The notes beneath the pieces were generated by a model. The model was not told the origin of the DNA. It saw only the letters and a program-made list of their open reading frames with translations, and did no database searches. Positions 12,049 to 39,867 of a stretch of DNA of 40,519 bases are shown here, piece after piece. The DNA comes from Acidobacteriota bacterium (GTDB lineage: Bacteria > Acidobacteriota > Terriglobia > Acidiferrales > UBA7541): positions 1-40,519 of the forward strand of contig QHYN01000209.1 of assembly GCA_003224145.1 (NCBI GenBank). The letters run 5' to 3'. How positions within the stretch are numbered: the first letter of the stretch is position 1; every line of letters starts with the position of its first letter. Made by a program: the position numbers and the translations under genes.

Positions 12049-12063
12049 ACCTTCGAATGACCA

Positions 12064-17835: not shown

Positions 17836-17934
17836 AAAGTCCTCCAAAATAAGCTGGCTTTCCGCAAGGATCAAAAGATGAAAACCGTTTGTAGGACCCC
17901 GTTCCCACCCCGGCGGAAACCGTTGTTTTTCCCC

Positions 17935-17965: not shown

Positions 17966-18030
17966 AAACTGCTCCGTTTGACGATGTTTGTCAAGTCTTT
18001 TTTTTGGCGTTGCCTGACGTAGACGATTCC

Positions 18031-18046
18031 GGCAAACGCTTTCGCC
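18031..18046. promoter_or_regulatory. Candidate second LacI-family operator
   Basis: GGCAAACGCTTTCGCC matches its own reverse complement at 12 of 16 positions and fits the general LacI-family pattern AA-N-CG-N-TT around a central CG. It shares the ACGCTT core with the palindrome at 17935-17952 and lies about 90 bases upstream of it, a spacing that could allow looping. Confidence 0.45.
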
Positions 18047-18225
18047 ACTCCTGGTTTTTGTAAACTCACAAGTTGTCAGCGGACAGCTGGAAATTGCTCC
18101 CTGCGCGGGTACAACGTACACACATCGAGGGAGAAGGACGTTTTTAAAAAGCTTCGCTATTAGGGGCGCCAGCGCGCAAATCGGACAAAAGCGCGCAGGA
18201 TTACACGCTAGAAATTTCCGGAAAT

Positions 18226-19287: not shown

Positions 19288-19310
19288 GGACTCGGCCCCG
19301 CTTCAACACC

Positions 19311-19344
19311 AATATATACTATCACATTTCAGAATACGTTTTCT
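19311..19344 (-). promoter_or_regulatory. Predicted promoter and operator of the LacI-type gene
   Basis: On the minus strand TATATT (19316-19311) can serve as the -10 box 24 bases upstream of the ATG. The expected -35 position (19339-19334) lies inside AGAATACGTTTTCT (19331-19344), a palindrome at 12 of 14 positions with a central CG and the ACGTTT core similar to the two candidate operators near 18 kb. Confidence 0.5.
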
Positions 19345-19518
19345 AGCGTGTTTTGCTTGATCCCCAAAAAATGCGTGCCCTAGCTTCGCCCCTCCTTCGA
19401 CTGGGCCTAGCCTCGACATCGCCACGCAGATCATCACGTTCCAACCGGGCGGGCAGGCATTGAGTCCATCTAGCTGGTCATAAATCCTGTCCTGAGCAGC
19501 TATCTTGCGGTCGTATTT

Positions 19519-19544
19519 GGCGATGGGTTTGATTCGCCATCGCC
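19519..19544. repeat. 8-bp perfect hairpin
   Basis: GGCGATGG (19519-19526) pairs with CCATCGCC (19537-19544) across a 10-base loop. There is no U-tract on either side. It lies in the gap between the LacI-type gene and the second TonB receptor. Confidence 0.5.
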
Positions 19545-19634
19545 CGCTTCATAAACCCAGGTGACTCAGTTGACCTTACACAGCTAGTTACACGAATTCG
19601 GGTTCAATCGGCCCGTTTTGGACGGTAGTCGGAG

Positions 19635-19671
19635 GGGAGTCGAACTCAATTGGACGGTTGGTTCGACTCCC
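19635..19671. repeat. 11-bp perfect inverted repeat carrying tRNA T-loop-like sequence
   Basis: GGGAGTCGAAC (19635-19645) pairs with GTTCGACTCCC (19661-19671) over 15 bases. The right arm with what follows (GGTTCGACTCCC then AAACGCTTCCGCCA) resembles a tRNA T-loop and acceptor end, but the T-stem has two mismatches. It lies 122 bases downstream of the second TonB receptor stop, where it could serve as a transcript end. Confidence 0.5.
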
Positions 19672-19793
19672 AAACGCTTCCGCCAGAGTATCCTGAATCA
19701 ACGGATTAAGCATTCGTCTCTATTCCTCCCAGAGTCTCGTCACAAAACGAACGAAGGGGAGTTCCAAAATTCCATCCGTATTCCTGGGCCGAT

Positions 19794-22700: not shown

Positions 22701-22997
22701 TGCTTCAGCGAATCCAGGTGCAGAGACAGTTATCTCGTATGTTCCAGGTGAAAGGTTGCCTATGGTAAAAGAGCCGTCTTCATTCGCAATAGTCGCCTTC
22801 GTATCTCCGTTCCCCGTATTCTTAATCGTGATGTGTGCATTCGCAATGGGAGAGCCAGAAACTGCCGTTATTTTCCCCGAGAGCGAACTGGCTACGACTT
22901 GGGCCGGCGTCCTGGGTGATATCAGAATCACGAATAGCGCAAACGCCGCCCTGAACAAAAAGACTACTCTCCACTTTATCCCCAGACGAAAAACCAT
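19794..22997 (-). CDS. Oar-like TonB-dependent receptor (second)
   Basis: A 1067-residue outer-membrane receptor. GGAG lies seven bases before the ATG. After a signal peptide (ending near PRTPAQ) come a carboxypeptidase-regulatory-like domain (SLSGKITAVSGSPIANAHIT, SPGTYEITVSAPGF), a plug with LPLNGRSASDLATLEPGV, QMTISGGRPRQNDSRLDG and EQFSVLTSNYPALYGRSSGG, and a long barrel ending IQFALKAIW. It is closely similar in motif order to the receptor at 27329-30709 (both have NDY-NG-PGS-LG-NLG and FNVQFRAE-FN--NH-NF) and unlike the receptor at 14455. The cytochrome/propeller gene lies 206 bases upstream on the same strand. Substrate unknown. Confidence 0.9.
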   Translation of the reverse strand: MVFRLGIKWRVVFLFRAAFALFVILISPRTPAQVVASSLSGKITAVSGSPIANAHITIKNTGNGDTKATIANEDGSFTIGNLSPGTYEITVSAPGFAEAKDTVIIGVGTNQVANTVLQPQVSNAAGKGQGGTSGVSGTVSSKNVSDLPLNGRSASDLATLEPGVTSARTQASGQAQRGFGNQMTISGGRPRQNDSRLDGISVNDYVNGPPGSALGVNLGADAVEQFSVLTSNYPALYGRSSGGIIAASTRSGTNNFHGNVFEYLRNSSFDARNFFDAAKPPFRRNQFGGSVGGPISKGKTFFFVAYEGLRQSQGITQVDTTPSQAARSGQLCAPPDCSTTTKVAVNAQITRFLDAFYPLPNGALLCPFSSCVAGTGDTGIFTFAGQQVTPENYFTTKVDHRFSEKDLFYGTYMFDAGKVRQPDELNDKRTGYDSRRQVFTAHEAHILSPSLFNAFRFGVSRVVAVTGLTFPSGNALVADSSFSTVPGLNAAAIGVPGLTFFSGGLGTRSNYHFHWTSLQGYDDVALTRGTHAIKFGFGLERVRDNVLAVSDTGGEFSFNSLFNFLTNSPFSLSVAIPGAISERGFRQTIVGAYVQDDWRWRPNLTINLGMRYETATVPTEVHGKLTALRELTDAQPHLGDPLISNPTLRNFEPRVGFSWDPFADAKTVLSSGFGMFDVLPLPYTVMFNELFSAPFFKLGVATALPPDSFPTGAFDIAASSNIFRQGFFDSSPRRNYVMQWNLTLAQDLTQNISMRVGYVGSRGVHQPFRVEDADIVLPSLTPQGYVWPSPPGSGSRLNSNAGRITAAFWQGNSFYDALQLKVKAKIGSGGEIGGSYTWGKTIDTSSGSLVGDEYSNSISSPLWFNMKLNRGLADFNVAHNLEVNYTFELSTPKWAHGVTAWALGGWQVGGVFEASTGVPFTPGFAGDALGVKSIDPNIDVPNLVSAPGCGALVNPGDPNHYIKTQCFAVPNPITLRGNLGRNTLVGPGLINLDSSLLKNNHIKRISDNFNVQFRAEFFNLLNHTNFVPPLDNRNIFDSTGNAIGNAGLITSTQTPSRQIQFALKAIW

Positions 22998-23203
22998 GGA
23001 TTGACTCCGCAGATCTCCCTTTACTTGCGGTTGCTTCGCGTCATCGAAGTCTGCACATCGTCAGATGTTTTCAATGCCCCCGCGCGACTCCTTCTCAAGG
23101 ATTTCATGAGCGAGCGTACTATTATTGACCGGAGTCTCGCTCTCATCCCTTCATTCTGGTCGATCGACACTGACGTGCCGTAGTGATCCCACGAGCGCCA
23201 AGT

Positions 23204-25354: not shown

Positions 25355-27118
25355 CTATTTTTTGAGAGCTTCGAATCGGAAATCGCCGGCTAGTATCTTT
25401 TGCATGCGCGTGTTGGCGTATTTCCAGGGATCGCGCGCATATTCCTCATAGCTTCCCGCCGCGTTGATGCCTGGAATATCCGGTATCCAATCTTCGGCCA
25501 GCAATTTGTCCGGATCGCCGCATTTTGCCGCCAATGTGCGTACATCCGGGTCGTCCAAGGAGGTCAAGTGCCCGCGGTCGACGATGGTCAGCCATTTGCC
25601 GGAAGTTCGCAAGTGCACCTTGTAGGTGATGAAGTAGTTCTGGATGTGAAAGTCGTGGCCATCGGGAAGATTGAGCTTTTCAGCAGATTCCTTCCACTTC
25701 TTCGGTGTGCCGAGCGAACCGGGATCGTGCCCGAGCTCGTTTCCGAGTCCCCAGTGGAATGCGCCGCTGCGGTAGCGCTCGTAAGTCAAGCAATAGACTC
25801 CTGCCGTGCCGCCGCCATAAAAATCCGTCGGATTGCGAAAATACTTGGGGTTGGTGCCCAGAGCGACTTCCCAGAGATTCCAGTAACCGGGATTGTCGTA
25901 ATGAGGGTAAGTGGTGTCGTTGATGTGAGGGTAGGTTTGAAATTCACGGATAACGTCGCCATATCGGCCTCCTCCTTTCACTTCCGTAATCTTACCGTCT
26001 TTGAGGTGAATTTCCATGTGCGGCCAAAAGCCGCCGGAGCCGTTGGTGCCCGCAATCACACCGTTGGCCTTGGCGTTGGGCGAACGGTCAATCCATTCGG
26101 GAAAGTTTTTGGGATAATTGTCGAAGTCCTGACCGTATTGACCAGTCGCGGAATCGGGGTACATCAGCAAATGACCCCGCCAGTAGATACCGCGCACCCA
26201 TCGCTTGGCCATCTCTTCAGAAACGCCCCAGGTTACATTGGTGCCTTCGGGATCTTGTACTTCGACCTTATCAACATCGGGAGTCACCATCGCGATGGTC
26301 TTTTTTTCAATCAACTGCCACAACTCAGCCGGAAAGGAAGAAACCTGACTGACAACCTCCCAGCTGTTGGTGAATGAACAGCGGCCCAGATATTTGCCTT
26401 CGAGCGGGGACATGGTGCGGGCGTAGAAAGCGCCGCCGGGATGACCCCAATATACGCCTTTGATTTTCGGATTCTTCTGCAAGTAATCGCGAATTGCCGC
26501 GCCGACGCTCTCATTCGAAAGTTTCTTCCACTTAGAGAGTAGTTCCGGCGTCATCTCGTCGCGCTTGGGGTAGAGCGAAGAATACAAGTCAGGATTTTTC
26601 AGTCTCAGCCACTCCTTCGGTACTTCCGGGTGAGCGAAAACCCGTTCGATCCAGTAGTACTTCGCCTCCATGAAACCTTCTTCGGCGCTGCGGATTTCCG
26701 TTTTCAATCGAATCTGTTCCGCATCCTCTTTGGAAACGCCGACCAGGGCGTAGTTCGGCACGATGTGCGCCTTCACGCCGCGTTCGGCGAGAGCTTTTAG
26801 GAGGGCTTCGACGACGAAATCTTCGGCCGTCGCGTCCGTAACGATCATAACTTCTTCGCCAGCCTGGAGCAGACCGAGGCCCAGTCCGGGAGAATTACCG
26901 CCGAATCCGGCGTTGTTTCGCACAAGGTCTCGCGCGTGGGGCAGAATCTCTTCGATGGATTTTGGTTTTTTCAAATAAGAGGGCCAGCGAGGCGCGGGAT
27001 AAGCCGCAGATTTGGGAGTCGAGTTCCTTTCTTGCGGCTGTGAACTTACCCTCGGAGTCAAAACTGCCAATAACGCGGAAAATGCGAACCACACCCACAT
27101 GGCGTGCAAAAACTTCAT
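25355..27118 (-). CDS. Secreted protein resembling M29 aminopeptidase / NicX-type metalloproteins
   Basis: A 587-residue protein with a signal peptide (MKFLHAMWVWFAFSALLAVL to VSSQ). No close family recognised with certainty. The layout recalls M29 aminopeptidases and the related NicX-type ring-opening dioxygenases: an N-terminal alpha/beta part with GEEVMIVTDATAEDFVVEAL, then in the C-terminal half EIHLKDGKITEVKGGGRYGD, NLWEVALGTNPKYF and GAFHWGLGNELGHD, matching the positions of the E-x-G-x-GTNP and H-x-G metal-site segments of that group. Known relatives are mostly cytosolic, so the signal peptide is unusual. A periplasmic metal-dependent hydrolase is the best guess. A TTAA-type repeat box lies 80-105 bases upstream. 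Confidence 0.6.
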   Translation of the reverse strand: MKFLHAMWVWFAFSALLAVLTPRVSSQPQERNSTPKSAAYPAPRWPSYLKKPKSIEEILPHARDLVRNNAGFGGNSPGLGLGLLQAGEEVMIVTDATAEDFVVEALLKALAERGVKAHIVPNYALVGVSKEDAEQIRLKTEIRSAEEGFMEAKYYWIERVFAHPEVPKEWLRLKNPDLYSSLYPKRDEMTPELLSKWKKLSNESVGAAIRDYLQKNPKIKGVYWGHPGGAFYARTMSPLEGKYLGRCSFTNSWEVVSQVSSFPAELWQLIEKKTIAMVTPDVDKVEVQDPEGTNVTWGVSEEMAKRWVRGIYWRGHLLMYPDSATGQYGQDFDNYPKNFPEWIDRSPNAKANGVIAGTNGSGGFWPHMEIHLKDGKITEVKGGGRYGDVIREFQTYPHINDTTYPHYDNPGYWNLWEVALGTNPKYFRNPTDFYGGGTAGVYCLTYERYRSGAFHWGLGNELGHDPGSLGTPKKWKESAEKLNLPDGHDFHIQNYFITYKVHLRTSGKWLTIVDRGHLTSLDDPDVRTLAAKCGDPDKLLAEDWIPDIPGINAAGSYEEYARDPWKYANTRMQKILAGDFRFEALKK

Positions 27119-27198: not shown

Positions 27199-27224
27199 TG
27201 AAATAAAAATTAAGTTTCTGTTAT
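27199..27224. promoter_or_regulatory. Weak TTAA 11-bp direct-repeat box upstream of the M29-like gene
   Basis: TGAA (27199), TTAA (27210) and TTAT (27221) are spaced exactly 11 and 11 bases, with GTTTCTG between the second and third. The box is about 80 bases upstream of the ATG at 27118 and matches the two stronger boxes at 30760 and 35719 in spacing and in its TTTCT segment. Confidence 0.4.
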
Positions 27225-27328
27225 CTTGCGGAGCGCAAAATGCCCCAAGTTTACCGAAATTTACGACACAAGCAGCTGGCCCTTCGGGCCGTTTGTGCCC
27301 GTTCTTATGCTTCGCCTCGCACCTGAGA

Positions 27329-30300
27329 CTAGAAGATTATCTTGATCGCAAATTGAATTTCCCGTGCGGTTGTAGTAGTTCTCGAGAGCAAACCTGCCAC
27401 CCCAGTATCTGCTCCCGACGAATCGAAAATATCCGTGTTGTCGGGAGTCGTGGGAGGCGCGAAGTTGGCGTGGTTCATAATGTTGAAGATCTCGGCGCGG
27501 AACTGCACGTTGAAGTTCTCCGAGATCCTCTTGATGTGGTTGTTCTTGAACACGGAGAAGTCCAAATTCGTTATGCCCGGGCCGATCAAGATATTCCGAC
27601 CGGCATTGCCTCGGAGGTTGAAGCACTGCAGTGAGCTGGAATCCCCACCTACGCAATTCGCCGTCCAGAAGGCAAGGTCGGGTGCAGTGGGGATAGGGAG
27701 GCACTGCGTCTTGATGTAGTTGTTGGGGTTGCCCGGATTCACGAGCGACGAACACCCGGCACCGCCTAGACGGTTCGGGAAGGCCCAATCGTCGTTGTTC
27801 TGCGTAAGAGCAGGGTCATCGCCGGTCCCCCATGTCGGGGTGAACGGAACCCCGTCACTGACCGTAAAGATCAGCCCAAGTTCCCAGCCATCTGTGATCC
27901 AACGGGTCGGCCCAGAGAATGACTTGGCGGTAGGAATGTCCCAGGTGCCGTTGATCACAAGCGTGCGGCCGACATTGAAATCGGAAAGGCCGCGAACTAA
28001 CTTCATGTTGAACCAATTCAGACTTGAGATCGAGTTACCGAAGGCGTCGCCCGCCACCGTCGCGGAACTGGTATCAATGCTCTTGCCCCACGTGTATGTG
28101 CCTTGCATCTGAAAGCCATGGCTCATGCGCTTCGCCAATTGCAGCTCAAGCGCGTTAAAGTAAGACCGCCCTTGGTAGAACATTCCTCGAATGGAGCCAT
28201 AGTTATCGTTGATCCGGCTTGCGTTGGGGTCCCACAGATACCCTGCTGACGTGAGCGTTGGAAGGGCCATGTCGGCGTCATCCACGCGGAAGGGCTGATG
28301 CACACCGCGCGACCCCACGTAGGCAACCATGGCCGCCAGACTTGGCGTGAGCTGGTACTGCACATTGAGGTTCCACTGCGCAACGTAATTGCGCTTGGGA
28401 TTGGGATCAATATAGGTTGCGCGCAATTTGTTCGATGGCAGTGGCGGAAGATTGTTGAAGAATGAGCCGGTTCCCGGATTCTTAATGGAGGTATATTGGA
28501 AGAAAGGAGCCGCCAGTGTGGTCAGAAGTGTGAACTGATAAGGCAGCGGCAGTACATCAAATAACCCGGCACCGCCGCGGACGGCCATCTTTCCGGTACG
28601 GAACGGGTCCCAGGCAAATCCGATGCGCGGCTCGAAATTCTTGGTCGTGGGATTATTGAAGAAGGGGCCGGTCCCGGCACAGCCCGTGACAGCCACTCCA
28701 CATATGGGTTGTGCATCGGTGAGGTTTCTCAGGACCGCGATTTTTCCGTTGATCTCGGTTGGCACTCTGGTCATCTCGTAACGCAGGCCCAGATTCAGTG
28801 TCAGGTTGGGCTTCCACCGCCAGTCGTCTTGCACGTATACGCCGAAGAGGGTCTGACGAAGGTTGCGCGGTGAAAGGGTGCTGGCGATTCCCCCCTGGAA
28901 CCTGCTCGGTTCGTTCTGGAAGAAACTACTCCTTATAAATGCTCCAGTCGTTTTATCGAATTCCCCCAAGGACCCGAACTTGAAGATTCCATTTGGATCG
29001 GAAAGGGCCCTGATATTGAGCAGCATGCGCTCGACGGTGCCGCCGAATTTGATCGTATGGGTTCCTTTGTTGATGAAGGCGTCGTCATAGAACTGGAACG
29101 AATTCCAGCGGTAGTAATAAGCGGATTCCCCGCCCACCCCGCCCAAGAAGGGCGTAATTCCAGCGATAATCACCTGAGGTGCAGTGCGGCCCGAAAAAGT
29201 GCCCAAAGATGTGGCGGCTGCCTCCGGCACAAGAGCACTCAGGCCTTTGTTGTTGTTTACGACTTCGTTATTATAACCAAAGCGGATACTATTCGCGAAG
29301 GTTGTCTTGAAAAGGTGAGTCTCCTCGACGGCCACTATCTGCCTCGCGCTATTGCTGCCAAGCAAGACATCATTTACACCGTCGGGAGCCGTGTAAGGAG
29401 TTTTGTCGAACATGTAGGTGCCAGACAGGTTGTCCTTTTCGGATATTTTGTGAACGAGGCGGGTGGTGACGAAATTCTCGTTGACAATCTGCTGACCGGC
29501 GAAACTGTATTCCGCGATGTCTCCGTCCCCAAGAATGGGTCCATTGGGCAGATGAAAAAACACTAGGAACGCACTCGCGTTCAAATCGATGCCATTCGGA
29601 TCTGTACCGGGACCAGGTTGGAGCTGGTGCGTCAAGCATGGATTTGGAGGAGGTTGCGGGATGGAACACAATAACCCGGAGCGCGCCGCGAGGGACGGCA
29701 CCGTAGTAAGTGCCGTGATGCCCTTGGACTGCCGAATGCCTTCGTAGTCTGCAAAAAAGAATGTGCGGTTTTTCACGATCGGTCCCCCGATCGCGCCGCC
29801 AAACTGGTTGCGCTTGAAAGGCGGAGCCCCGCTCGGATCATCGAAAAAGTTCCTGGCGTCCAGCTTGCTGTTTCGGAGAAATTCGTAAACACTCCCGTGA
29901 AAACCATTGGTCCCGGAGCGGGTAACAGCGTTGACAACACCTCCGGAGGTTTTGCCGTACTCCGCCGAATAGTTGCTCGTGAGGACTGAGAACTCCTGAA
30001 TGGCGTCCACGCCCAGGTTTCCTCCCAGCACACTCCCAGGGGCGCCATTGGCGTAATCGTTGAGGCTAATGCCATCCAAACGATAATTATTCTGCTGCGG
30101 CCGCGCGCCGGAGATAGTCAACTGTTGTCCGAAACCGCGATTGCCACGATCGGCGCCCACCGCGAAAGTCGGCTGGGTCTGGATAGTGCTGACACCAGGC
30201 TGCAAGGCTGCCAAATCTGTCCAACTGCGGCCATTGAGGGGCAGCTCGCGAACCGTATTCGCGGATACGACAGCACTAATCTCGGAGCTGGCAAGTTGTA

Positions 30301-30709
30301 CAGCGGGGGCTTCCGTGGTGACCTCTACGACGGTTTTCGCAGCAGACCCGACATGCAGGCTGAGGTTGAAGACCTGCTGAGCGCCAACCGTAAGCGAGAT
30401 CCCCTTTCGAGCCTCAGTGTTGAACCCCCTCGCTGAAACCGTGATTTCGTACTCTCCGGGTAACAGGTTCGGGGCGGTGTAGAAACCGTCCGAATTCGTC
30501 GTAACCGTCGTGGTAATCCCGGTCGCCACGTTGGTGATGGAAACCTGCGCTTGAGGAATGGTTTTGTCGGAGGGATCGGTGATGGTGCCGAAGAGCGTTC
30601 CTCCGGCGACCTGCGCGTCAACTGGAACGGAAGACAGAATTCCGAAGATCAAAAGTAGAGCTAGCGCGCAGCCGAACGAAATTGCTATGGAAAGTCTTCG
30701 AGAGGACAC
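27329..30709 (-). CDS. Oar-like TonB-dependent receptor (third)
   Basis: A 1126-residue outer-membrane receptor with a GTG start behind GGGGGTG. The signal peptide is followed by a carboxypeptidase-regulatory-like domain (LFGTITDPSDKTIPQAQVSI), plug motifs LPLNGRSWTDLAALQPGV, QLTISGARPQQNNYRLDG and QEFSVLTSNYSAEYGKTSGG, and a barrel ending IQFAIKIIF. It is a paralogue of the receptor at 19794-22997. The kinase gene ends only 50 bases upstream, and a three-repeat TTAA box lies at that junction, so its expression is probably set by the neighbouring two-component system. Substrate unknown. Confidence 0.9.
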   Translation of the reverse strand: MSSRRLSIAISFGCALALLLIFGILSSVPVDAQVAGGTLFGTITDPSDKTIPQAQVSITNVATGITTTVTTNSDGFYTAPNLLPGEYEITVSARGFNTEARKGISLTVGAQQVFNLSLHVGSAAKTVVEVTTEAPAVQLASSEISAVVSANTVRELPLNGRSWTDLAALQPGVSTIQTQPTFAVGADRGNRGFGQQLTISGARPQQNNYRLDGISLNDYANGAPGSVLGGNLGVDAIQEFSVLTSNYSAEYGKTSGGVVNAVTRSGTNGFHGSVYEFLRNSKLDARNFFDDPSGAPPFKRNQFGGAIGGPIVKNRTFFFADYEGIRQSKGITALTTVPSLAARSGLLCSIPQPPPNPCLTHQLQPGPGTDPNGIDLNASAFLVFFHLPNGPILGDGDIAEYSFAGQQIVNENFVTTRLVHKISEKDNLSGTYMFDKTPYTAPDGVNDVLLGSNSARQIVAVEETHLFKTTFANSIRFGYNNEVVNNNKGLSALVPEAAATSLGTFSGRTAPQVIIAGITPFLGGVGGESAYYYRWNSFQFYDDAFINKGTHTIKFGGTVERMLLNIRALSDPNGIFKFGSLGEFDKTTGAFIRSSFFQNEPSRFQGGIASTLSPRNLRQTLFGVYVQDDWRWKPNLTLNLGLRYEMTRVPTEINGKIAVLRNLTDAQPICGVAVTGCAGTGPFFNNPTTKNFEPRIGFAWDPFRTGKMAVRGGAGLFDVLPLPYQFTLLTTLAAPFFQYTSIKNPGTGSFFNNLPPLPSNKLRATYIDPNPKRNYVAQWNLNVQYQLTPSLAAMVAYVGSRGVHQPFRVDDADMALPTLTSAGYLWDPNASRINDNYGSIRGMFYQGRSYFNALELQLAKRMSHGFQMQGTYTWGKSIDTSSATVAGDAFGNSISSLNWFNMKLVRGLSDFNVGRTLVINGTWDIPTAKSFSGPTRWITDGWELGLIFTVSDGVPFTPTWGTGDDPALTQNNDDWAFPNRLGGAGCSSLVNPGNPNNYIKTQCLPIPTAPDLAFWTANCVGGDSSSLQCFNLRGNAGRNILIGPGITNLDFSVFKNNHIKRISENFNVQFRAEIFNIMNHANFAPPTTPDNTDIFDSSGADTGVAGLLSRTTTTAREIQFAIKIIF

Positions 30710-30759
30710 TGGTTCACCCCCATTGAGGCGGAGACTAGTCCATAGTTTGAGGGTATGCC

Positions 30760-30785
30760 TTAACTCAACATTAATTTCTGTTTAG
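30760..30785. promoter_or_regulatory. TTAA 11-bp direct-repeat box upstream of the third TonB receptor
   Basis: TTAA at 30760, TTAA at 30771 and TTAG at 30782 are spaced exactly 11 bases. The box overlaps the stop and last codons of the kinase gene and is 51-76 bases upstream of the receptor start. OmpR-family regulators of the PmrA/QseB type bind such 11-bp direct repeats. Confidence 0.6.
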
Positions 30786-32190
30786 GTGGGGTTCCAGTGC
30801 TGCCTTTCATGGAGTTCGCCACCGGCAAAGTCACCGTGAAAGTTGAGCCGGCGCCCAACACGCTGCGACACTCGATGGAGCCACCCTGGGCCCCGGCGAT
30901 GGCTTGGGCGATGGCAAGGCCCAGCCCCCCACTGTGGGCATCGCCATTGCTGGAAGGTGCCGCGCGGTAGAAGCGTTCAAAAATGTGCGACAGGTGCTCG
31001 CTGGAAATCCCGATGCCTTGGTCTTCGAAACGGGCTTGGATCGCACCGTCCTGTTGCTTGAGAGTGACACGGATCTGAGTGTCATCGGAGGAATACTTGA
31101 TCGCATTGTCGAGAAAGATCAGAAAGAGTTCATGAAGGAAAGCCTCATCGCCCGAGTAGGCAATCTCCCGGCTTAAATCCCGCACAATCACAATATTTTT
31201 TGTGCGTGCCCGCGAGGTCCCCAGAGCACAAGCTTCTTCCAGAACCTCGTTGATGTAGAGAGGCTCGCAAGCCAAGTGCAGCTGTCCGGCATCTGCCATC
31301 GAGAGAGTGAACAATCCCTCCACAATCCGAGTGAGTTTCTTGAATTCGTCGTCGAGGGCGGAGAGAGTTGTTTGATACTCTTCGGCACTGCGGGGTTTGG
31401 ATAGAAGCAGTTCCGTCTCACCGTGGAGAACGGCAAGTGGTGTGCGCAGCTCGTGGGAGGCATCCGTCACAAATTGACGCAATTGACGGACGGCGGAATC
31501 AACGCTCTGCAAGAGTTGATTGAAAGTATCCGCCAGGCGGCCCAGCTCATCATGGGGCGAGTGTACCGGGAGAGGTGTCCAGAATCCTTCCCGATTGGTA
31601 ACCCGTTTTGCCATCAGAGCCGCATGTTGCGTGAGCGCCATGACAGGTTTGAGGCTTCTTCCCACATAAAATGCCGAGATCACCGCGGTCAACAATAGGC
31701 TCAGAAGAAAGAGAAGTAAGGCCACTCGGCCAAAACTGTCGAGTACTCTGTTGGTGCCAAAAGTAGGAATGGCCACCGCCAGGATTCGCGGCTGATTCCC
31801 CTGCTGAAAAGGGATGAATGCGATGTGCAGCGTTTCCCCGGAGCCGATAGCGGCAATCCCGAACACAGGGCCAGCGACGCTTGGTTTCAAGTCCTTCATG
31901 TCAATCGGAGTTGTCAGATTCTTTGAATGCTGGAGAACCTGACCCGCAGGCTCCAGGAGCTCGAAGAATTCGCCGGGGATATCCAGCCGGTCTACGTCTT
32001 TCGCATTGGGTTCGGTGACGATGTCAGCGATGATGGGCCTGGCAGTTTCGAGAAGCCGGCGGTTGATTTGCGCGGAAACTTCGTGGGCCAGTATGCCCCA
32101 GAATGCGAGGTAAGAAGCAGCAAGCAGCACTCCGACCACGCTGCAGAACAGCACCATCATACGGAAACGAAGCGTGCGCCCCTTCATCAT
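30760..32190 (-). CDS. Two-component sensor histidine kinase
   Basis: A 476-residue inner-membrane kinase. Transmembrane helices are seen at about 11-31 and 156-176, with a periplasmic sensor of about 120 residues between them. HAMP follows (about 177-235). The HisKA box has H246 in DASHELRTPLAVLHGE, the ATPase domain has FLIFLDNAIKYS (N box), FEDQGIGIS (G1), FERFYR (F box) and GGLGLAIA (G2). All catalytic parts are intact. It belongs to the group paired with OmpR/CusR-type regulators. Its ATG overlaps the stop of the response-regulator gene by 4 bases, so the two are translationally coupled. The last codons carry the TTAA box described separately. Signal sensed: unknown. Confidence 0.93.
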   Translation of the reverse strand: MMKGRTLRFRMMVLFCSVVGVLLAASYLAFWGILAHEVSAQINRRLLETARPIIADIVTEPNAKDVDRLDIPGEFFELLEPAGQVLQHSKNLTTPIDMKDLKPSVAGPVFGIAAIGSGETLHIAFIPFQQGNQPRILAVAIPTFGTNRVLDSFGRVALLLFLLSLLLTAVISAFYVGRSLKPVMALTQHAALMAKRVTNREGFWTPLPVHSPHDELGRLADTFNQLLQSVDSAVRQLRQFVTDASHELRTPLAVLHGETELLLSKPRSAEEYQTTLSALDDEFKKLTRIVEGLFTLSMADAGQLHLACEPLYINEVLEEACALGTSRARTKNIVIVRDLSREIAYSGDEAFLHELFLIFLDNAIKYSSDDTQIRVTLKQQDGAIQARFEDQGIGISSEHLSHIFERFYRAAPSSNGDAHSGGLGLAIAQAIAGAQGGSIECRSVLGAGSTFTVTLPVANSMKGSTGTPPKQKLMLS

Positions 32191-32861
32191 TCCGGCGTTC
32201 CTAGGCGGTAACCAACGCCGCGGACCGTATGAATCAATTTTGCGGATCGGTTTTGATCAATCTTCTGGCGCAATCGATTGACGTAGACTTCGACGAGGTT
32301 GGTCTCGCTATCAAAGTGCCGATCCCAGACATGTTCGACGATCTCGCTCCGCGTGACAAACTCCGGAGCGCGAAGCAAGAAGAGTTCGAGAAGAGCGAAC
32401 TCCTTGGAAGTCAGGGGAATGACTTCCTTGCCTCGGGTGGCGCGGCGGCGGTGGCGTTCCAACTCAAGATCCGCGTACCGAAGTTTGGCATTGCCGCTGT
32501 GGAGGCCTCGCCGAACCAGTGCCCGCACACGCGCAAGGAGTTCCGCCAAGACGAAGGGTTTGGTGAGATAGTCGTCCGCGCCCGCGTCCAAGCCTTCCAC
32601 TCTTTGCTCGACCAATCCCCGGGCCGTAAGCATCAGAATCGGCGCCTCCACTCCCTGCTGGCGCAACTCCCGGCAAACCTCGACGCCGCTGAGGCCGGGT
32701 AGTCTAACATCCAGAAGAATGGCGTCGTAAGGGACGTCCGTACCGAGTTCCAGGGCTTTCTCGCCTGATTCCGCGATGTCCACGGCGTAGGCGTTCTCGC
32801 GCAAAGCCCGTGCGATAAAGCTGGCTACCTTCCGCTCGTCTTCGACCAAAAGTAGGCGCAT
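32187..32861 (-). CDS. OmpR-family response regulator
   Basis: A 224-residue regulator of normal length. The receiver domain (1-118) has acidic residues in LLLVEDERK, the phosphorylated Asp D51 in LLDVRLPG, T79 in LMLTARG and K101 in YLTKPF. The C-terminal winged helix (about 130-222) shows LTSKEFALLELFLLRAPEFV, the recognition region TNLVEVYVNRLRQKID and IHTVRGVGYRLG. It is first in a two-gene operon with the kinase and is likely to bind the 11-bp TTAA repeats found three times in the window; that link is inference. The closest named relatives by pattern are CusR/QseB-type regulators. Confidence 0.94.
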   Translation of the reverse strand: MRLLLVEDERKVASFIARALRENAYAVDIAESGEKALELGTDVPYDAILLDVRLPGLSGVEVCRELRQQGVEAPILMLTARGLVEQRVEGLDAGADDYLTKPFVLAELLARVRALVRRGLHSGNAKLRYADLELERHRRRATRGKEVIPLTSKEFALLELFLLRAPEFVTRSEIVEHVWDRHFDSETNLVEVYVNRLRQKIDQNRSAKLIHTVRGVGYRLGTPE

Positions 32862-32970
32862 ACGACTCGCACAATATCATCGCACAACGTGAGGGGATCT
32901 TCTGCGAGACAATGGCGCACGGGAAGCCGCATCGGTTGTGGGCCCGTCGGCCGGCGCGAATTCGTGATCA

Positions 32971-34281
32971 TCACTTCAGATCATTCCGAATGACCTGGCC
33001 CCCCTTCATCACAAACTTCACCCGTTCGAGTTCGGTGATGTCCTTCAGCGGATCGGCGGATACCGCAATGATATCCGCATATTTGCCCTTCTCGAGGGAG
33101 CCAATCTGATCCTGCCATCCCATCATCTCCGCAGCGACCGTGGTCGCAGACTGAATGGCCTGGGAGGGTGTCATGCCGTATTTCACCAGATAGGCGAACT
33201 CCGCAGTCTGGGTTCCGTGCGGAAATGGTCCCACGCCGGTGCCAAAAGAGATCTTTACGCCGCGCGCGATCGCTAGCCGGCCACTCTTCTCCCGCAGGGC
33301 TTCCAGGCTGTATTTGCCTCTCGTTGCCTTGGCGTCCTTGATCGTATAGTCGGAGAGCGAGTAGTGATATGCCGTCAGTTCGAGGTAGATCCCCTTCTTC
33401 TTCATCGAGTCAGCAGTTGTTTCGTCGAGATCGATGGCGTGCTCAATCGTGTCCGTTCCGGCTTCCACGCAGTTTCGCAAACCCTCTCCCCCAAAAGCGT
33501 GGCAGGCTGCTTTCTTGCCGTGCCGATGCGCTTCATCCACGATGGCAAAAACCTCTTCCTTGGTAAAAGTGGGGTCACTCTTCAGTGCGCCGTCCGCTTC
33601 AAACTCATAGTCGGCGGTGGAGTGGAATTTGATCCAGTCGGCACCATAGTGGATCTGTTCCCGGACCGCCTGGCGAGCGGCCCAGGGGCTGTCCACCGTT
33701 TGGTAGTTTCGTGGCAAGTTCACTTCCGGCGACCCTAGTATGCCTTCACCTGTAGCAACGAGGCCCATGCTAGAAACCTGCATCCGTGGACCCTGGAAAA
33801 GGCCGCGATTGATGGCCTTCTTAATGTCCACGTCAGCATAGCCGCCGCCGTGGCTCATCAAATCGCGAATGGTGGTAAACCCAGCGCGGAGGTCTTTCTG
33901 GGCGTTGGCCAGCGCGAGCAGCGTTCGGTATTCCCGGGTGTCATTGATATTGCTGGCGAATGGCGGGCCGCCGGGCTTGATGCCGTCGAGCCCAAAGCCA
34001 AAGACGTGCGTATGTCCATCGATTAAACCGGGCAGTACCGTAGCGTTGCTCAGGTCTATGACTTGAGCTCCGGACGGAATCTGGACCCGGGCGGCGGGGC
34101 CAACTTCCGTGATCTTTTCGCCTTCGACCAGAATAATCTGATTTTCGGCCACCTGGCCGGAATGGCTGTCAAAGAGGCGGCCTGCGCGAATCGCAACGAC
34201 CCCGCGGGTTTGGGCATGCAGCGCCATCACGGGGGCCAACAGGAGAAGGGAATTTACCAACCGTAATTTCCAAGATCTCAA
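32971..34281 (-). CDS. Secreted amidohydrolase (imidazolonepropionase/Xaa-Pro dipeptidase-like) lacking the catalytic Asp
   Basis: A 436-residue metal-dependent hydrolase. A TTG at 34281 is chosen because GGAGG lies five bases upstream and a signal peptide follows at once (LRLVNSLLLLAPVMALHAQ). Metal ligands seen: H90 and H92 in LIDGHTHVFG, K218 in DWIKFHS (carboxylated Lys), H261 in ACHAFGG and H281 in TIEHAIDLD. The normal GTDAG motif is replaced by GTGVG at 347-351, so the catalytic Asp is Gly; a single base change (GAC to GGC) explains it. Similar secreted enzymes cleave Xaa-Pro or cyclic peptide substrates. The paralogue at 39864 is cut before this site. Activity may be lost or altered. 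Confidence 0.88.
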   Translation of the reverse strand: MRSWKLRLVNSLLLLAPVMALHAQTRGVVAIRAGRLFDSHSGQVAENQIILVEGEKITEVGPAARVQIPSGAQVIDLSNATVLPGLIDGHTHVFGFGLDGIKPGGPPFASNINDTREYRTLLALANAQKDLRAGFTTIRDLMSHGGGYADVDIKKAINRGLFQGPRMQVSSMGLVATGEGILGSPEVNLPRNYQTVDSPWAARQAVREQIHYGADWIKFHSTADYEFEADGALKSDPTFTKEEVFAIVDEAHRHGKKAACHAFGGEGLRNCVEAGTDTIEHAIDLDETTADSMKKKGIYLELTAYHYSLSDYTIKDAKATRGKYSLEALREKSGRLAIARGVKISFGTGVGPFPHGTQTAEFAYLVKYGMTPSQAIQSATTVAAEMMGWQDQIGSLEKGKYADIIAVSADPLKDITELERVKFVMKGGQVIRNDLK

Positions 34282-34426
34282 TTCAGCCTCCGCAAATTGC
34301 AGATTCGTTCTATCCCTTGAATTCTTGAGTCCCGCGGCGCAATCCACGAGATTGAGCAGGCTGCCGTGGTTGCCTCAATCTATTTCGCGGATGGTGAGCT
34401 GCATGCAAGTTCAAAGTACGAGCTAC

Positions 34427-35437
34427 TTAGTTGACTTCGAAGACCAAAACCTCGGCACTCGTCGTTCCGTGCTGCGGCACAGCCACGAAATACCGCTTGA
34501 GTTGAGGCACCAGCAGCGCGGTTCTCCCCATGGGCGCGGTAGCAATTTTTCCAATTAGTTTGTAGTTGTCGGCGTCGGACTGTTCATACACATCGGCGTC
34601 GCCATCGCACGCGGCATAGATGCGTTTGCTGGCAGGGTCATAAACAATGTCGTCCACACCTTTTGTAATCGGCAAGGCGGTGACTTCTTTGCCCGTCTGG
34701 GTATCCAGCACAGAAATCTGTCCGCTACGGCAGCCGATGAAAAGCCGGTGGTTCGCTTCATTGAAGGCCATGGCGACGTTGGTTTTACACTTTGTCAACG
34801 GCCAACTGGCGACGACTTCGCGCTTCTCCCGGTCCACGACGTCCACTTGGTTCTTGGCTTTGTTATTGACGTACATTTTTGGGCTGGAGTTCTCGAGCGC
34901 CATGGCTTCGAGAGTGTCCCCTTCAATCTTGATGTCCGCTAGCTTCTTTCCCGTAGTGGTATCAACGACGCTCAACAACGAAAATGTTTCGTGAACATCG
35001 CCTCCACCATTGTCGATGTAAAGGTATTTTGTTGCCGGGTCGTATCCAATGGAATCCGCGTCCTCCAGGAGTTTCACACTCGACAGCAATTTGTACGTCC
35101 TGCTGTCGAAGATCTTCAAATCTCCAGCCTCCCCGTCCGTAACGTAGAGCCGGCCCACGTTTTCACGATAGAGCACCGCGTGCGGCTTCTGGATTCCGCC
35201 GATGGTGTGGATCAGTTGGCCAGTCTTTATGTCAAAGACCAAGACCGATCTGTAACCCTCCGGCGTGGCGAAGAGCCGCTGACCCTTGAGATCGATCGCA
35301 AAATGGTCGAAGTTTCCTTTGACTTCGGGCGGCAGCTTGAAAGTTTGGACAAGCTTGAGCGGTGCAGTCTCCTGACACCGAGCTCTCACTCCGAATACGG
35401 TGAAAACTGCCATGAGGATCAAAAACCGTTTCTTCAT
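34427..35437 (-). CDS. Secreted YVTN-type beta-propeller protein
   Basis: A 336-residue protein with a signal peptide (MKKRFLILMAVFTVFGVRAR). AGGGAGA lies before the ATG. The body is a set of about seven beta-propeller blades of the YVTN/YncE type, each with a LYV(T/I)D or IYAACDGD-like strand (GRLYVTDGEAGDLKIFDSRT, KYLYIDNGGGDV, HRLFIGCRSGQISVLDTQTG). No catalytic motif is recognised. It is a clear paralogue of the protein at 37472-38491, sharing LIHTIG, PHA-L-R, DADSI-YDPAT-YLY and NVAMA blocks. It is divergent from the phosphatase operon and upstream of the amidohydrolase gene on the same strand. Role unknown; ligand binding in the periplasm is plausible. Confidence 0.8.
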   Translation of the reverse strand: MKKRFLILMAVFTVFGVRARCQETAPLKLVQTFKLPPEVKGNFDHFAIDLKGQRLFATPEGYRSVLVFDIKTGQLIHTIGGIQKPHAVLYRENVGRLYVTDGEAGDLKIFDSRTYKLLSSVKLLEDADSIGYDPATKYLYIDNGGGDVHETFSLLSVVDTTTGKKLADIKIEGDTLEAMALENSSPKMYVNNKAKNQVDVVDREKREVVASWPLTKCKTNVAMAFNEANHRLFIGCRSGQISVLDTQTGKEVTALPITKGVDDIVYDPASKRIYAACDGDADVYEQSDADNYKLIGKIATAPMGRTALLVPQLKRYFVAVPQHGTTSAEVLVFEVN

Positions 35438-35887
35438 ATTCTCTCCCTAAGTGTTGATGCTTTATTTTCCCTCTAGCACAATTACATGGCTCTGCCCGAA
35501 CTTGGTCCGGCCTTGCCTGAGACGCGGATAATTCAAAGCATGGCCGTGCCGGACAAAAGACGATAACGAACTGCCGCTGCGGAAAAGTCTCGGAAACCTC
35601 CAAAAATGCAGCGGAATTCCACCGAATTGGACTGGCACGTGAAGTGACTTTGCACCGCAGTTTGACCCCTGCCGCAGGCCACCACGGCGAAGCATAATTC
35701 ATTCGTCGCTATGCGAGCTTAAAACAGCATTAATTTCTATTTAACTGAAAGGTTCCCAAAAATGATTTTTGCCTGAAAACAAGCAGCTTAGGTCCATCTA
35801 CAGTTTCACGTTCACGATGAGGGGCTGAATGCGCCGTTGACTCGACAAGCAGGCTTCAAAGAGTATTAGCGGGTCGAAGGAAAACAG
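35438..35887. other. Divergent regulatory region between the two outward-facing gene groups
   Basis: A 450-base gap with no supported gene. It holds the TTAA repeat box (35719-35744) and a 6-bp hairpin CAAAAATGATTTTTG at 35757-35771. No strong sigma-70 promoter stands out, in keeping with an activator-dependent promoter. Confidence 0.5.
35719..35744. promoter_or_regulatory. TTAA 11-bp direct-repeat box upstream of the phosphatase operon
   Basis: Three perfect TTAA tetramers at 35719, 35730 and 35741, spaced 11 and 11 bases. The second repeat unit, TTAATTTCTAT, differs from that of the box at 30771 (TTAATTTCTGT) at one base. It lies 144-169 bases upstream of the TTG start at 35888 and could also act leftward on the gene starting at 35437. 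Confidence 0.62.
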
Positions 35888-37435
35888 TTGCAAGCAGACA
35901 GTGGGAAAAATCAATCCACGTTATCCGCTCTTTTGAGCGTTGCATTATTGTGCGCGATTTCGTTCTTGCTGCCATTCGGAGCAAGGGCGCAACGCGCTCA
36001 TGAGAACCGGTCGACTCCACGACGGCATTCGGTGCAGCACGTCTTGCTGCTCAGCATCGACGGCATGCATAGCCTGGATCTCGCTAATCTTGTCAAATAC
36101 CAACCCGAGTCGGCTCTTTCGAAATTGAGTCTGCACGCCGTTACCTATTCGAACGCTTTTACTTCCTTCCCCTCCAACTCATGGCCCGGACTGCTTTCCA
36201 TGGTGACGGGAGGTTCTCCGAATGTGACGGGTGTCATTTTTGAGAACTCTTACGATCGCAGTCTATCGCCCCCCGCTTCCGATTGCACCAAGATTGGAAC
36301 TCCCGTGATTTTCGATTCCTCAATCGACAAGAATCATGATGCAGTTGATGGCGGAGGAGGCATCGATCCCAATAAATTGCCGAGGGACCCAAAGAACGGC
36401 TGCTTCCCCGTGTTCCCCCACAGCTTCGTCCGGGTAAACACCATTTTCGAAGTCATTAAGAAGAGTGGCCGCCGTACTGCATGGTCTGACAAGCACCCGG
36501 CATATGATCTTGTGAATGGGCCGTCGGGTACGGGAGTGGATGACCTTTTCACGCCGGAAGTTCGATCTTTCCGAGGGACCAAGAGTATTGAATCGTACGA
36601 CGACCTTAAGGTGGCGGCGATCCTGAACGAAATCGATGGTAAAGATCACACCGGAACGCAACAAGTTGGCATTCCGGCAATTTACGGCATGAACTTCCAA
36701 TCGATCAGCGTTGCGCAGAAGACCAGCGGTGGGGGCTACGTCGATGCCAGCGGCCATCCAAGTCCGCTTTTAGAAGACGCCTTCACTCACACGGATCAGT
36801 CCATTGGAAGAATCATGGCCAGGCTGCGGGACCGCGGCTTGCTCGACTCCACGGTCGTAATCGTGACTGCCAAACACGGCGACTCCCCGATGGACCCTGC
36901 AAAGCTGCGGCATGCCGACCTGGAACTCATTCCGAAAACCGTTGCCGCGATCCACGAAGGTTTGTTGGCGTGTATCGAGCAGGATGGAAGTGTTGCGCTC
37001 CTTTGGCTCTCGGATCAGGACCGAACGCCTGATGTCGTCGATGCCCTGCGAAAAATCCAGACGGAGGCGGGCATCCAGGAAATCTATTCGGACGAATCAT
37101 TGAAGCTACTGTTTAACGATCCGAAGAGCGATCCGCGTGTGCCAGACATCATAATTCAGCCAACTCCAGGGCAAATCTATGTAGATACCGATAGCGCATT
37201 CATCGCAGAGCACGGCGGCAAAGCAGACACGGATCGGAATGTCCCGCTTCTTGTTTTTTACCGCAAGTTCAGCCGAAGTCAGATCAAGTTTCCAGTGCAG
37301 ACTTCGCAAATTGCCCCGACCATTCTCAAAGCGCTAGGGCTGGATCCGACTTCACTAGACGCGGTGAGAATCGAGAAGACTCCACTCTTGCCCGGGCTGA
37401 ATTTTGAGCAAATGTCTCGCCCGGCTGCACCGTAA
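35888..37435 (+). CDS. Secreted alkaline-phosphatase-superfamily (nucleotide pyrophosphatase/phosphodiesterase-like) enzyme
   Basis: A 515-residue secreted hydrolase. The TTG start at 35888 is supported by AAGGA six bases upstream and a signal peptide (LSALLSVALLCAISFLLPFG). Superfamily metal and nucleophile motifs: D58 in LLSIDGMH, FTSFPSNSWPGLLSMVTGG with S96 or S98 as nucleophile, DKHPAYD at 201-207, D303 in HTDQSIGRIM, H330 in VTAKHGDSP and a late EHGGKADTDRNVPLLV. This suggests two-metal hydrolysis of phosphomono- or diesters in the periplasm. It heads a plus-strand group with a propeller, an MFS transporter and an amidohydrolase. Substrate unknown. Confidence 0.88.
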   Translation: MQADSGKNQSTLSALLSVALLCAISFLLPFGARAQRAHENRSTPRRHSVQHVLLLSIDGMHSLDLANLVKYQPESALSKLSLHAVTYSNAFTSFPSNSWPGLLSMVTGGSPNVTGVIFENSYDRSLSPPASDCTKIGTPVIFDSSIDKNHDAVDGGGGIDPNKLPRDPKNGCFPVFPHSFVRVNTIFEVIKKSGRRTAWSDKHPAYDLVNGPSGTGVDDLFTPEVRSFRGTKSIESYDDLKVAAILNEIDGKDHTGTQQVGIPAIYGMNFQSISVAQKTSGGGYVDASGHPSPLLEDAFTHTDQSIGRIMARLRDRGLLDSTVVIVTAKHGDSPMDPAKLRHADLELIPKTVAAIHEGLLACIEQDGSVALLWLSDQDRTPDVVDALRKIQTEAGIQEIYSDESLKLLFNDPKSDPRVPDIIIQPTPGQIYVDTDSAFIAEHGGKADTDRNVPLLVFYRKFSRSQIKFPVQTSQIAPTILKALGLDPTSLDAVRIEKTPLLPGLNFEQMSRPAAP

Positions 37436-37471
37436 GAGAGTTGCATGCCACATTAATTTAGGGAGGAACAT

Positions 37472-38491
37472 ATGCATCGAATGCGGTTTGCCATCCTCAC
37501 CGTATTTGCCGCGCTGGCGGTCAGCCTGGCCGCGCAAGACAAAACGCCTTTGAAGCTGGTGGCCACCATCCCATTGCCCGGACTTCACGATGGCGATTTT
37601 GACCATTTTGCGCCGGATGTCGAAGGCCACCGGCTTTTCCTCACCGCGGAAGAAAACGAAAAGGTCCAGGTGCTCGACACCAGCAGCAATCAGCTCATTC
37701 ACACCATTGGGGATGTAAAGGCGCCCCACGCCATACTGTTTCGAAAGGATTTGAAAAAACTCTTCATCGTGGAGGGCGACGCCTCGGCGGTCAAAGTCTA
37801 CGACAGCGATAGCTACAAACTGGTTGGAGAGATCAAGTTATCCATCGACGCAGATTCCATCGCCTACGATCCCGCTACCAACTACCTCTATGTCGTGAAT
37901 GGCGGCCGAGAGGCACATACGCCGTATTCGTTGATCAGTGTAGTGGATACGAATAGCTCCAAGAAGCTGCGCGATATCAAAATTAACTCCAACCGCGTAG
38001 AAGCGATCGTGCTGGAGAAATCCGGACCACGCTTGTTCTGCAACATCACGGGTCAAAACGCCGTTGGCGTCCTCGACCGGAACAAGTCGGCCCTCACGGC
38101 TACGTGGCCTCTGCCAGCAGGTGATACGCAAAACGTGGCCATGGCCCTGGACGAAGCCGATCACCGCCTGTTCGTTGTCACCCGCAAGCCGGGAAAGTTG
38201 ATTGTCCTTGATTCGAACAGCGGCAAGATCATCACCAGCTTACCTGCTGTCGGAATGGTAGACGACATGAGTTTCGACACCAGGCAAAGACGCATTTACC
38301 TTGCTGGAGATCAATTTGTGGATGTTTTCGAGCAAGAGGACCCCGATCATTACGTTCTGCTGGCGAAAATTCCAGGAAGCTTTCGCGCCAAGACGGGCAT
38401 CCTGATACCCCAACTGAATCGGTACTATCTTGCTGCCCCGCATCACGGGGATAAGGAGGCTGAAGTGCGCGTGTACGAGGTGCAGCCCTAA
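37472..38491 (+). CDS. Secreted YVTN-type beta-propeller protein (paralogue)
   Basis: A 339-residue secreted propeller (signal peptide MHRMRFAILTVFAALAVSLA). GGGAGG lies five bases upstream of the ATG, and the leader ttaGGGAGG resembles that of the paralogue at 34427-35437. Blades are seen as HRLFLTAEENEKVQVLDTSS, KLFIVEGDASAVKVYDSDS, NYLYVVNGGREAH and HRLFVVTRKPGKLIVLDSNS. By eye the two proteins share roughly 40 percent of residues along their whole length. It is 36 bases after the phosphatase-like gene and 41 bases before the transporter gene, so it is very likely in one operon with them. No enzymatic residues recognised. Confidence 0.82.
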   Translation: MHRMRFAILTVFAALAVSLAAQDKTPLKLVATIPLPGLHDGDFDHFAPDVEGHRLFLTAEENEKVQVLDTSSNQLIHTIGDVKAPHAILFRKDLKKLFIVEGDASAVKVYDSDSYKLVGEIKLSIDADSIAYDPATNYLYVVNGGREAHTPYSLISVVDTNSSKKLRDIKINSNRVEAIVLEKSGPRLFCNITGQNAVGVLDRNKSALTATWPLPAGDTQNVAMALDEADHRLFVVTRKPGKLIVLDSNSGKIITSLPAVGMVDDMSFDTRQRRIYLAGDQFVDVFEQEDPDHYVLLAKIPGSFRAKTGILIPQLNRYYLAAPHHGDKEAEVRVYEVQP

Positions 38492-38532
38492 ACTACGCGT
38501 GGGCGGCGATTTGACGTTAAGTACATCTCCCC

Positions 38533-39867
38533 ATGGAACCCGCACATAACATCACGCAGAGGACAGAGGAACTCGAAGCGGGGCAGGAAATAAGTTCACG
38601 CGGTAGGTCGCAGCGCTGGTTTCGAATTATTCCTGTCGCGCTGGTAATGTACACGATTGCCTTCATCGACCGCACGAATATCTCCCTTGCCCTTCCGCGG
38701 ATCAGTCGCGATCTTCATCTGGATCCACAACAGGCGGGGACAGTCGCGGGCATTTTCTTCTGGGGTTATCTGGCACTGCAGATCCCCGGCGGCCATCTGG
38801 CCAAACATTGGAGCCCGAAGAAATTCATTAGCGTGCTGTTGGTAGCGTGGGCGACCTTCGCCTTGGGTTGCGGCCTGGTTCGCACATATCACGAACTCCT
38901 GTTGCTTCGGTTACTTCTCGGGGTGGCCGAAAGCGGAGTTTTTCCGGCAACGTTAATCCTTTTGTCGCACTGGTTCTCTCGCGCCGAACGCGCACGGGCC
39001 AATGCCTTTTGGTTGCTTTGTTTGCCGGGAGCAGTCATTGTTTCTTCACCATTTTCGGGATGGATGTTGGACCACTGGAATTGGAGGGTGATGCTGGTCG
39101 CCGAGGGATCGCTCCCGTTCTTATGGCTGGCTATCTGGCTGCTCTTCGTTCAAGACCATCCGGGAGAGGCTGCCTGGCTGCTAAAGAATGAACGGGATTC
39201 CCTCGTGGAAACTCTGCGTCGGGAATCTTCGGAATTGGAAAGTTCGGAAAATATCTCCTACCTGCGCGCGCTCTTGCGTCCTCAGGTATTTCTTCTGGCT
39301 GCTGTCTATTTTTGCTTTGTGAGCGGGCAGATGGGCTTGCTGTTCTGGCTGCCCAGTGCGATGGAGAAGTTCAAGAAATTGAGCAGTCTGCATACCGGGT
39401 TGCTATATACGCTACCGTTCATCGTCGGAGCTATTTCTCTTCAAATCTTCTCTCGTCATTCCGACAAGATGCACGAGCGCCCGCGGCATGCTGCGGTGGC
39501 CATGCTGTTCGGAGGATGTTGCATCCTGCTTGCGGTTGCGATCATTCCTCACTCTCTGCTAATTGCCTTCGCGTTCATCGCACTGAGCGGCGTGGGCGCT
39601 TACGGACCGATGGGCGCTTTCTGGGCCATACCGACAGAGACGCTGCCCGCCAAAATAGTCGGCTCGGTGATGGGCTTCGCCAATGCTATCGGCAATTTAG
39701 GAGCTTACTTCGCTCCACTCATTGTCGGATACCTCAACAAGAGAACAGGAAATTTTCTGTCAGGTTTTACATATCTGGGTCTGATCACTGTGGTCGCAGC
39801 CGGCCTCGCCATGCTGCTGAGGACCGCGCCCGCTCACCCGGTAACTGCGGCCTCGGAGGGCCAATGA
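38533..39867 (+). CDS. MFS transporter, anion:cation symporter (ACS) type
   Basis: A 444-residue inner-membrane transporter with about 12 hydrophobic segments in two halves. The first helix carries the ACS-family signature IAFIDRTNISLALP. The loop 2-3 region has LAKHWSPKKF, and helix 4-5 has LLGVAESGVFPATLILLSHWF followed by SRAERARANA. The second half begins near FLLAAVYFCFVSGQMGLLFW. ACS members carry organic anions such as tartrate, phthalate, hexuronates or galactonate, usually with protons. Here it probably takes up the product of the secreted enzymes around it. Its stop overlaps the start of the next gene by 4 bases (ATGA), indicating one transcript. Confidence 0.9.
   Translation: MEPAHNITQRTEELEAGQEISSRGRSQRWFRIIPVALVMYTIAFIDRTNISLALPRISRDLHLDPQQAGTVAGIFFWGYLALQIPGGHLAKHWSPKKFISVLLVAWATFALGCGLVRTYHELLLLRLLLGVAESGVFPATLILLSHWFSRAERARANAFWLLCLPGAVIVSSPFSGWMLDHWNWRVMLVAEGSLPFLWLAIWLLFVQDHPGEAAWLLKNERDSLVETLRRESSELESSENISYLRALLRPQVFLLAAVYFCFVSGQMGLLFWLPSAMEKFKKLSSLHTGLLYTLPFIVGAISLQIFSRHSDKMHERPRHAAVAMLFGGCCILLAVAIIPHSLLIAFAFIALSGVGAYGPMGAFWAIPTETLPAKIVGSVMGFANAIGNLGAYFAPLIVGYLNKRTGNFLSGFTYLGLITVVAAGLAMLLRTAPAHPVTAASEGQ

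Follow-up and report, generated by a model that had tools for sequence, protein, structure and literature searches.

An oriented direct-repeat box predicted to place a TonB-dependent receptor gene and a two-component operon of an acidobacterium under one OmpR/PhoB-type response regulator

The window analyzed here, a 40,519-nucleotide (nt) stretch of DNA from an Acidobacteriota bacterium (contig QHYN01000209.1), encodes a response regulator and a sensor histidine kinase in one operon with a YncE-like beta-propeller and an amidohydrolase. A TonB-dependent receptor gene lies behind the kinase gene, and phosphodiesterase, propeller, and MFS genes are oriented divergently from the operon (Table 1). 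A preliminary description of this DNA had pointed out two boxes, at 30760-30785 and 35719-35744, each with three TTAA-like units at 11-bp steps and with a near-identical middle unit; these proved correct to the base. The window letters are CTTAACTCAACATTAATTTCTGTTTAGGT at box 1 (30759-30787) and CTTAAAACAGCATTAATTTCTATTTAACT at box 2 (35718-35746), with units TTAA/TTAA/TTTA(G/A) at exact 11-bp steps and TTAATTTCT(G/A)T as the middle unit. Box 1 overlaps the final codons and the stop codon of the kinase gene, and box 2 is intergenic.

The pattern TTAAN7TTAAN7TTA, with up to one mismatch, is expected 0.11 times per shuffled window, and two perfect plus-strand sites were observed; thus, boxes 1 and 2 are not due to chance. 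The scan of the whole genome proposed in the preliminary description (4.79 Mb in 359 contigs, ∼95% complete) gave the same picture: boxes 1 and 2 were the sole sites matching TTAAN6ATTAATTTCTGTTTA with up to three mismatches, and the reversed control gave none. Twenty-seven sites from the genus yielded the consensus CTTAAnnCARRATTAATTTCTGTTTAGST. The core CTTAA-N6-ATTAA, which has the PmrA-type arrangement of two HTTAA half-sites 11 bp apart from start to start, was present in 26 of them, the remaining one having CTGAA. Boxes in the genus occupy two fixed places, one at the kinase 3' end ahead of the TonB-dependent receptor gene and the other in front of the propeller gene, the first of the regulator operon.

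The occurrence of the motif follows that of the regulator. Among 399 genomes of the class, the regulator (E ≤ 1e-90, 66 to 100% identity) was found in 47 and the motif (up to one mismatch) in 21, 20 of which are among the 47 (Fisher p = 7e-20, not corrected for kinship; reversed control, 0/399). In the motif-positive genome outside the 47 (G106), the regulator gene is split between two contigs, the two parts being 74% and 75% identical; counting this split copy, all 21 motif-carrying genomes hold this regulator at 66% identity or more. Within the genus of the window, the motif was found in 12/12 regulator-positive and 0/24 regulator-negative genomes, the latter carrying paralogs up to ∼56% identical. 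Of 50 regulator loci, 33 have a box no more than 3.2 kb away, compared with 5 of 45 flanking segments. With a matrix built from the 27 sites, boxes of drifted sequence were also detected near the regulator genes of other genera and families. Most lie ∼1.4 kb past the regulator, which is just behind the kinase; one family has them immediately upstream of the regulator gene, pointing away from it. The comparison with relatives carrying the same regulator, which had likewise been proposed, therefore shows that the 11-bp direct repeats co-occur with the regulator and adjoin its gene, in support of the earlier suggestion that the boxes belong to the OmpR-type regulator/kinase pair encoded between them.

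The boxes are also directional, which the preliminary description did not mention. On the strand opposite TTAATTTCTGTTTA, a TANNNT −10 hexamer follows the box in 59 of 66 cases, at an offset of 21 nt in 44 and 22 nt in 15, compared with a background of 0.9% per position. At these offsets on the other strand, 4 of 66 boxes have the hexamer. The same hexamer stands at 21/22 nt in 30 of 33 lower-scoring boxes, many from other genera and families, so that the geometry persists even in boxes of diverged sequence. When box core and −10 hexamer were combined into one composite pattern, this genome yielded only boxes 1 and 2; the pattern was present in 37/46 genomes with the regulator and in 2/34 without it. 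Because the −10 hexamer is at a fixed distance on one strand only, the box most likely serves as an activator site of the OmpR/PhoB type, placed at the −35 region and with a single functional direction, and the predicted site reaches the upstream edge of that region at a fixed helical phase. The box extends to where a −35 hexamer would lie, and a regulator bound there might instead block RNA polymerase. In the boxes compared, however, that place is taken up by the end of the box and by variable sequence, with no conserved TTGACA-like hexamer, so that an unaided promoter would be weak. Moreover, activators require a fixed distance in a single orientation, here 21/22 nt, as for the Salmonella PhoP promoters of architectures I and III, in which the box is active at 12 or 23 nt and in the direct orientation only (PMC3335776). 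We consider repression quite improbable.

At box 1, the orientation and the −10 hexamer point to the promoter of the receptor gene, in keeping with the position of the box ahead of it that had been described. The GTG start codon of the receptor, at 30709, is 28 nt downstream of the first base of TAGTCT, with GGGGGTGA in between, and the Shine-Dalgarno sequence is 16 nt after the start of the −10 hexamer, much as in relatives, where the start codon, with its Shine-Dalgarno sequence, follows the −10 hexamer by ∼28 to 34 nt. At box 2, the strand of the fixed −10 hexamer indicates that the box would drive the propeller-amidohydrolase-regulator-kinase operon (the amidohydrolase gene is part of this operon in some relatives only). 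The box faces away from the divergent phosphodiesterase operon, whose switch it had been taken to be when that operon was described as phosphatase-like. Box 2 might control both operons, since it sits between them and phosphodiesterase or propeller genes occupy the divergent side in most relatives within the genus, but the strand bias of the −10 hexamer (4/66 versus 59/66) speaks against such a bidirectional role. In addition, several relatives have a separate TTGACT-N17-TAGCAT promoter ∼100 bp further on, where the window has no clear −10 hexamer at N17 spacing. Bidirectional control is thus unlikely.

Table 1. Genes, boxes, and predicted promoter elements at the locus (positions in the window)
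Feature	Position	Strand	Remarks
Box 1, predicted response-regulator site for the TonB-dependent receptor promoter	30759..30787	-	Sense strand ACCTAAACAGAAATTAATGTTGAGTTAAG
Predicted −10 hexamer TAGTCT	30732..30737	-	21 nt past box 1
Box 2, predicted response-regulator site for the propeller-amidohydrolase-regulator-kinase operon	35718..35746	-	Sense strand AGTTAAATAGAAATTAATGCTGTTTTAAG
Predicted −10 hexamer TATGCT	35691..35696	-	21 nt past box 2
Response regulator, receiver and Trans_reg_C winged helix	32187..32861	-	Predicted box binder
Sensor histidine kinase (HAMP, HisKA, HATPase_c)	30760..32190	-	Last codons (KQKLMLS, stop) encoded by box 1
TonB-dependent receptor (CarboxypepD_reg, plug, OMP_b-brl_4)	27329..30709	-	Predicted target 1
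YncE-like beta-propeller	34427..35437	-	First gene of the predicted autoregulated operon
Amidohydrolase	32971..34347	-	Best NCBIfam model Xaa-Pro dipeptidase, 349.9 bits (cut-off 500)
Phosphodiesterase, propeller, and MFS genes, divergent	35888..39867	+	Adjoin box 2 on the side without promoter geometry
Weak third box of the preliminary description, rejected	27199..27224	not assigned	1-bp mis-spacing; no −10 hexamer at 21/22 nt; below matrix threshold

Taken together, the co-occurrence, the adjacency, and the promoter geometry lead us to put the probability at about 0.9 that the boxes are binding sites of this response regulator, through which it would activate the receptor gene and its own operon. 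Several observations weigh against this assignment. Seventeen of the 50 regulator loci have no recognizable box nearby, partly on short contigs but including one (G053) with 81% regulator identity, and the genome counts are phylogenetically non-independent. The TTAA cores are palindromic, so that the orientation of the box rests on its flanks and on the −10 hexamer. Finally, the recognition helix, NLVEVYVNRLRQK, is almost the same as that of a paralog with 55% identity, common in the genus (NLIEVYINRVRGK), and sequence alone therefore leaves the specificity unexplained. The presence of paralogous OmpR-type regulators with near-identical recognition helices could mean that a different DNA-binding protein reads the boxes. 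Yet the motif is missing from genomes that have the paralogs without this regulator, and the regulator and kinase stay constant beside the box while the other genes change; a different reader is highly improbable.

Since box 1 lies inside the last kinase codons in the genus of the window, its conservation might be thought to reflect nothing but the coding of the kinase C terminus. Coding constraint was rejected as the cause, and its probability is close to nil: the intergenic box 2 is near-identical; 12/12 kinase tails keep the rare Leu codon TTA (3.6% of Leu codons in the genes of the window) in box 1; the structure model shows this tail as disordered (pLDDT ∼30 to 35); and in other genera the kinase stop codon precedes the box. 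The kinase seems to have been extended into the promoter downstream of it. Along the kinase frame through the box (window 30760-30800; L034-L044, L107), it is the regulatory DNA that dictates the last kinase residues (KQKLIL-). The catalytic core of the kinase model is ordinary (mean pLDDT, 72.9), and the 50 best Protein Data Bank matches to the model gave no pointer to the signal.

The regulator has the domains of the OmpR/PhoB family (PF00072, 97.9 bits with a cut-off of 30.2; PF00486, 92.6 bits with a cut-off of 26.2), and residues D8, D51, T79, and K101 are invariant, so that a phosphorylatable Asp is in place. PmrA and QseB had been named as the type of regulator, but the scores were far below the curated cut-offs of both (NF007928, 186.3 of 330 bits; NF007663, 170.4 of 345 bits). 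The CztR/SilR/CopR heavy-metal model (TIGR01387, 241.7 of 279.2 bits) and the PhoB model (TIGR02154, 195.2 of 296.2 bits) were missed as well, and PmrA, QseB, PhoB, and CopR were all rejected as identities of the regulator. The kinase scored best with the heavy-metal model TIGR01386, also below the cut-off (219.2 of 292.55 bits).

Four known systems can be compared with the one described here. PmrA (BasR) is an OmpR-type regulator that likewise has TTAA half-sites at 11-bp steps, its boxes being a YTTAAK direct repeat in Salmonella and TTTAAG-N5-TTTAAG in Acinetobacter (PMC10927774). The sites of the genus share the CTTAA-N6-ATTAA core but differ in having a third unit, a long invariant flank (CAGAAATTAAT), and a fixed orientation with a −10 hexamer at 21/22 nt; in addition, the regulator is below the PmrA cut-off, and its predicted targets are a TonB receptor or a resistance-nodulation-division (RND) pump. 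PhoP promoters also have one oriented box, its half-sites spaced by 11 bp, set at a constant helical distance from the −10 hexamer, whereas the half-site sequence, the three units, the 21/22 nt (counted here from the last unit), and the regulon, which is unrelated, are different. The CusRS/CopRS systems (TIGR01387/TIGR01386) provide the best-scoring NCBIfam models, and distant members of the present group face a tripartite RND efflux operon, but both proteins are below the cut-offs, and the site is a direct repeat, whereas the E. coli CusR box is an inverted repeat. In E. coli, the YncE beta-propeller goes with the TonB receptor YncD/PqqU. YncE-like propellers also adjoin a TonB receptor here, but the match of this receptor to the PqqU model is weak (24 bits, cut-off 1200), and co-regulation by a two-component system is predicted. 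In view of these comparisons, the regulator would work like PmrA, PhoP, or PhoB without being any of them, and its predicted regulon, which is well supported, is a new one of the known OmpR/PhoB kind.

The following sequence of events is proposed: (i) the kinase would phosphorylate the regulator; (ii) the phosphorylated regulator would bind head to tail on the three 11-bp units; (iii) the site, whose sequence in the direction of transcription is approximately ASCTAAACAGAAATTAATCTTGnnTTAAG, ends 21 to 22 nt before TANNNT; (iv) the bound regulator would reach the −35 region and help RNA polymerase to start, in a PhoP/PhoB-like manner; and (v) one site would serve the TonB-dependent receptor gene and the other the propeller-amidohydrolase-regulator-kinase operon, which, as it contains the regulator and kinase genes, would amount to positive autoregulation.

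A weaker third copy that had been placed at 27199-27224 is not supported as the same element. Its units 1 and 2 are 1 bp out of register, it has no −10 hexamer at 21/22 nt (a TAGCAT is at 13 nt), and its matrix score is below the threshold of 14. The 587-residue protein encoded downstream of it (25355-27118), between a receptor and a propeller gene, is matched by neither Pfam nor NCBIfam, and a search of 60 related genomes at E ≤ 1e-100 found no relative. With the spacing, the missing −10 hexamer, and an orphan gene, the inclusion of an "M29-like" gene and this box in the regulon is not supported. The earlier proposal of one system uniting receptor, enzymes, propellers, and transporter therefore stands for the receptor promoter and the propeller-amidohydrolase-regulator-kinase promoter but not for the divergent phosphodiesterase-propeller-MFS operon or the third box. 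That proposal is partly supported and shrinks to two promoters, that of the regulator operon and that of the receptor gene, which may also serve genes lying behind the latter.

Elsewhere in the genus, boxes also face MmgE/PrpD, class-V aminotransferase, and sodium:dicarboxylate symporter genes; these further promoters with box and −10 hexamer are in L144 (615, 3497), L150 (8648), L037 (329), L040 (17993), L153 (8324), and L039 (19109). This suggests a wider catabolic regulon in the larger genomes of the genus. A separate sugar-use locus at 10278-23000 of the window encodes two more TonB-dependent receptors, a LacI-type regulator, and GH42/GH35-like glycosidases and has no box. The window also contains a tmRNA gene (1906-2285; tag, ANHNLALAA).

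Across lineages, the regulator and kinase are the constant neighbors of the box, and the other genes vary. A TonB-dependent receptor gene stands behind the box or the kinase in the genus of the window and at least two more genera, as well as in two genomes from a different family. Several other genera and families have, in front of the box, an OEP (TolC-type) gene and then genes for a periplasmic adaptor and an RND permease (best model, multidrug RND, below its cut-off). A YncE-like propeller is sometimes the first gene of the efflux operon facing the box (L049, L122, L127, L129, L131). On the regulator tree, the receptor label must have changed at least twice, but the outgroup paralogs are on long branches (one over 6), which leaves the root, and therefore the polarity of an efflux-to-receptor change, unsafe. 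Two genomes of another family (G350 and G152) carry clusters of the type found in the genus of the window, with boxes and 83 to 88% regulator identity (L107, L108, L143). Because these clusters nest inside the genus in the tree, horizontal transfer is likely. One genome (G018) has two diverged copies of the whole cluster (L038, L043), each with its own boxes. We somewhat favor the view that the regulator, kinase, box, and −10 hexamer form a portable control cassette whose output operon was swapped in evolution, with control of a TolC-MFP-RND efflux pump in several genera and redeployment to a TonB-dependent receptor and propeller and catabolic genes in the genus of the window, where the box became embedded in the kinase 3' end.

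Literature searches for such a site in Acidobacteria returned nothing relevant among the papers listed. For a two-component system from a class of bacteria in which the literature searched describes no such site, the analysis yields a predicted regulon together with the binding site and the geometry of the promoters, and it illustrates that a hunch from raw sequence is checkable through the co-occurrence of regulator and motif. It also provides a natural case in which the genes faced by one regulator-promoter unit are for export in some lineages and for import across the outer membrane in others.

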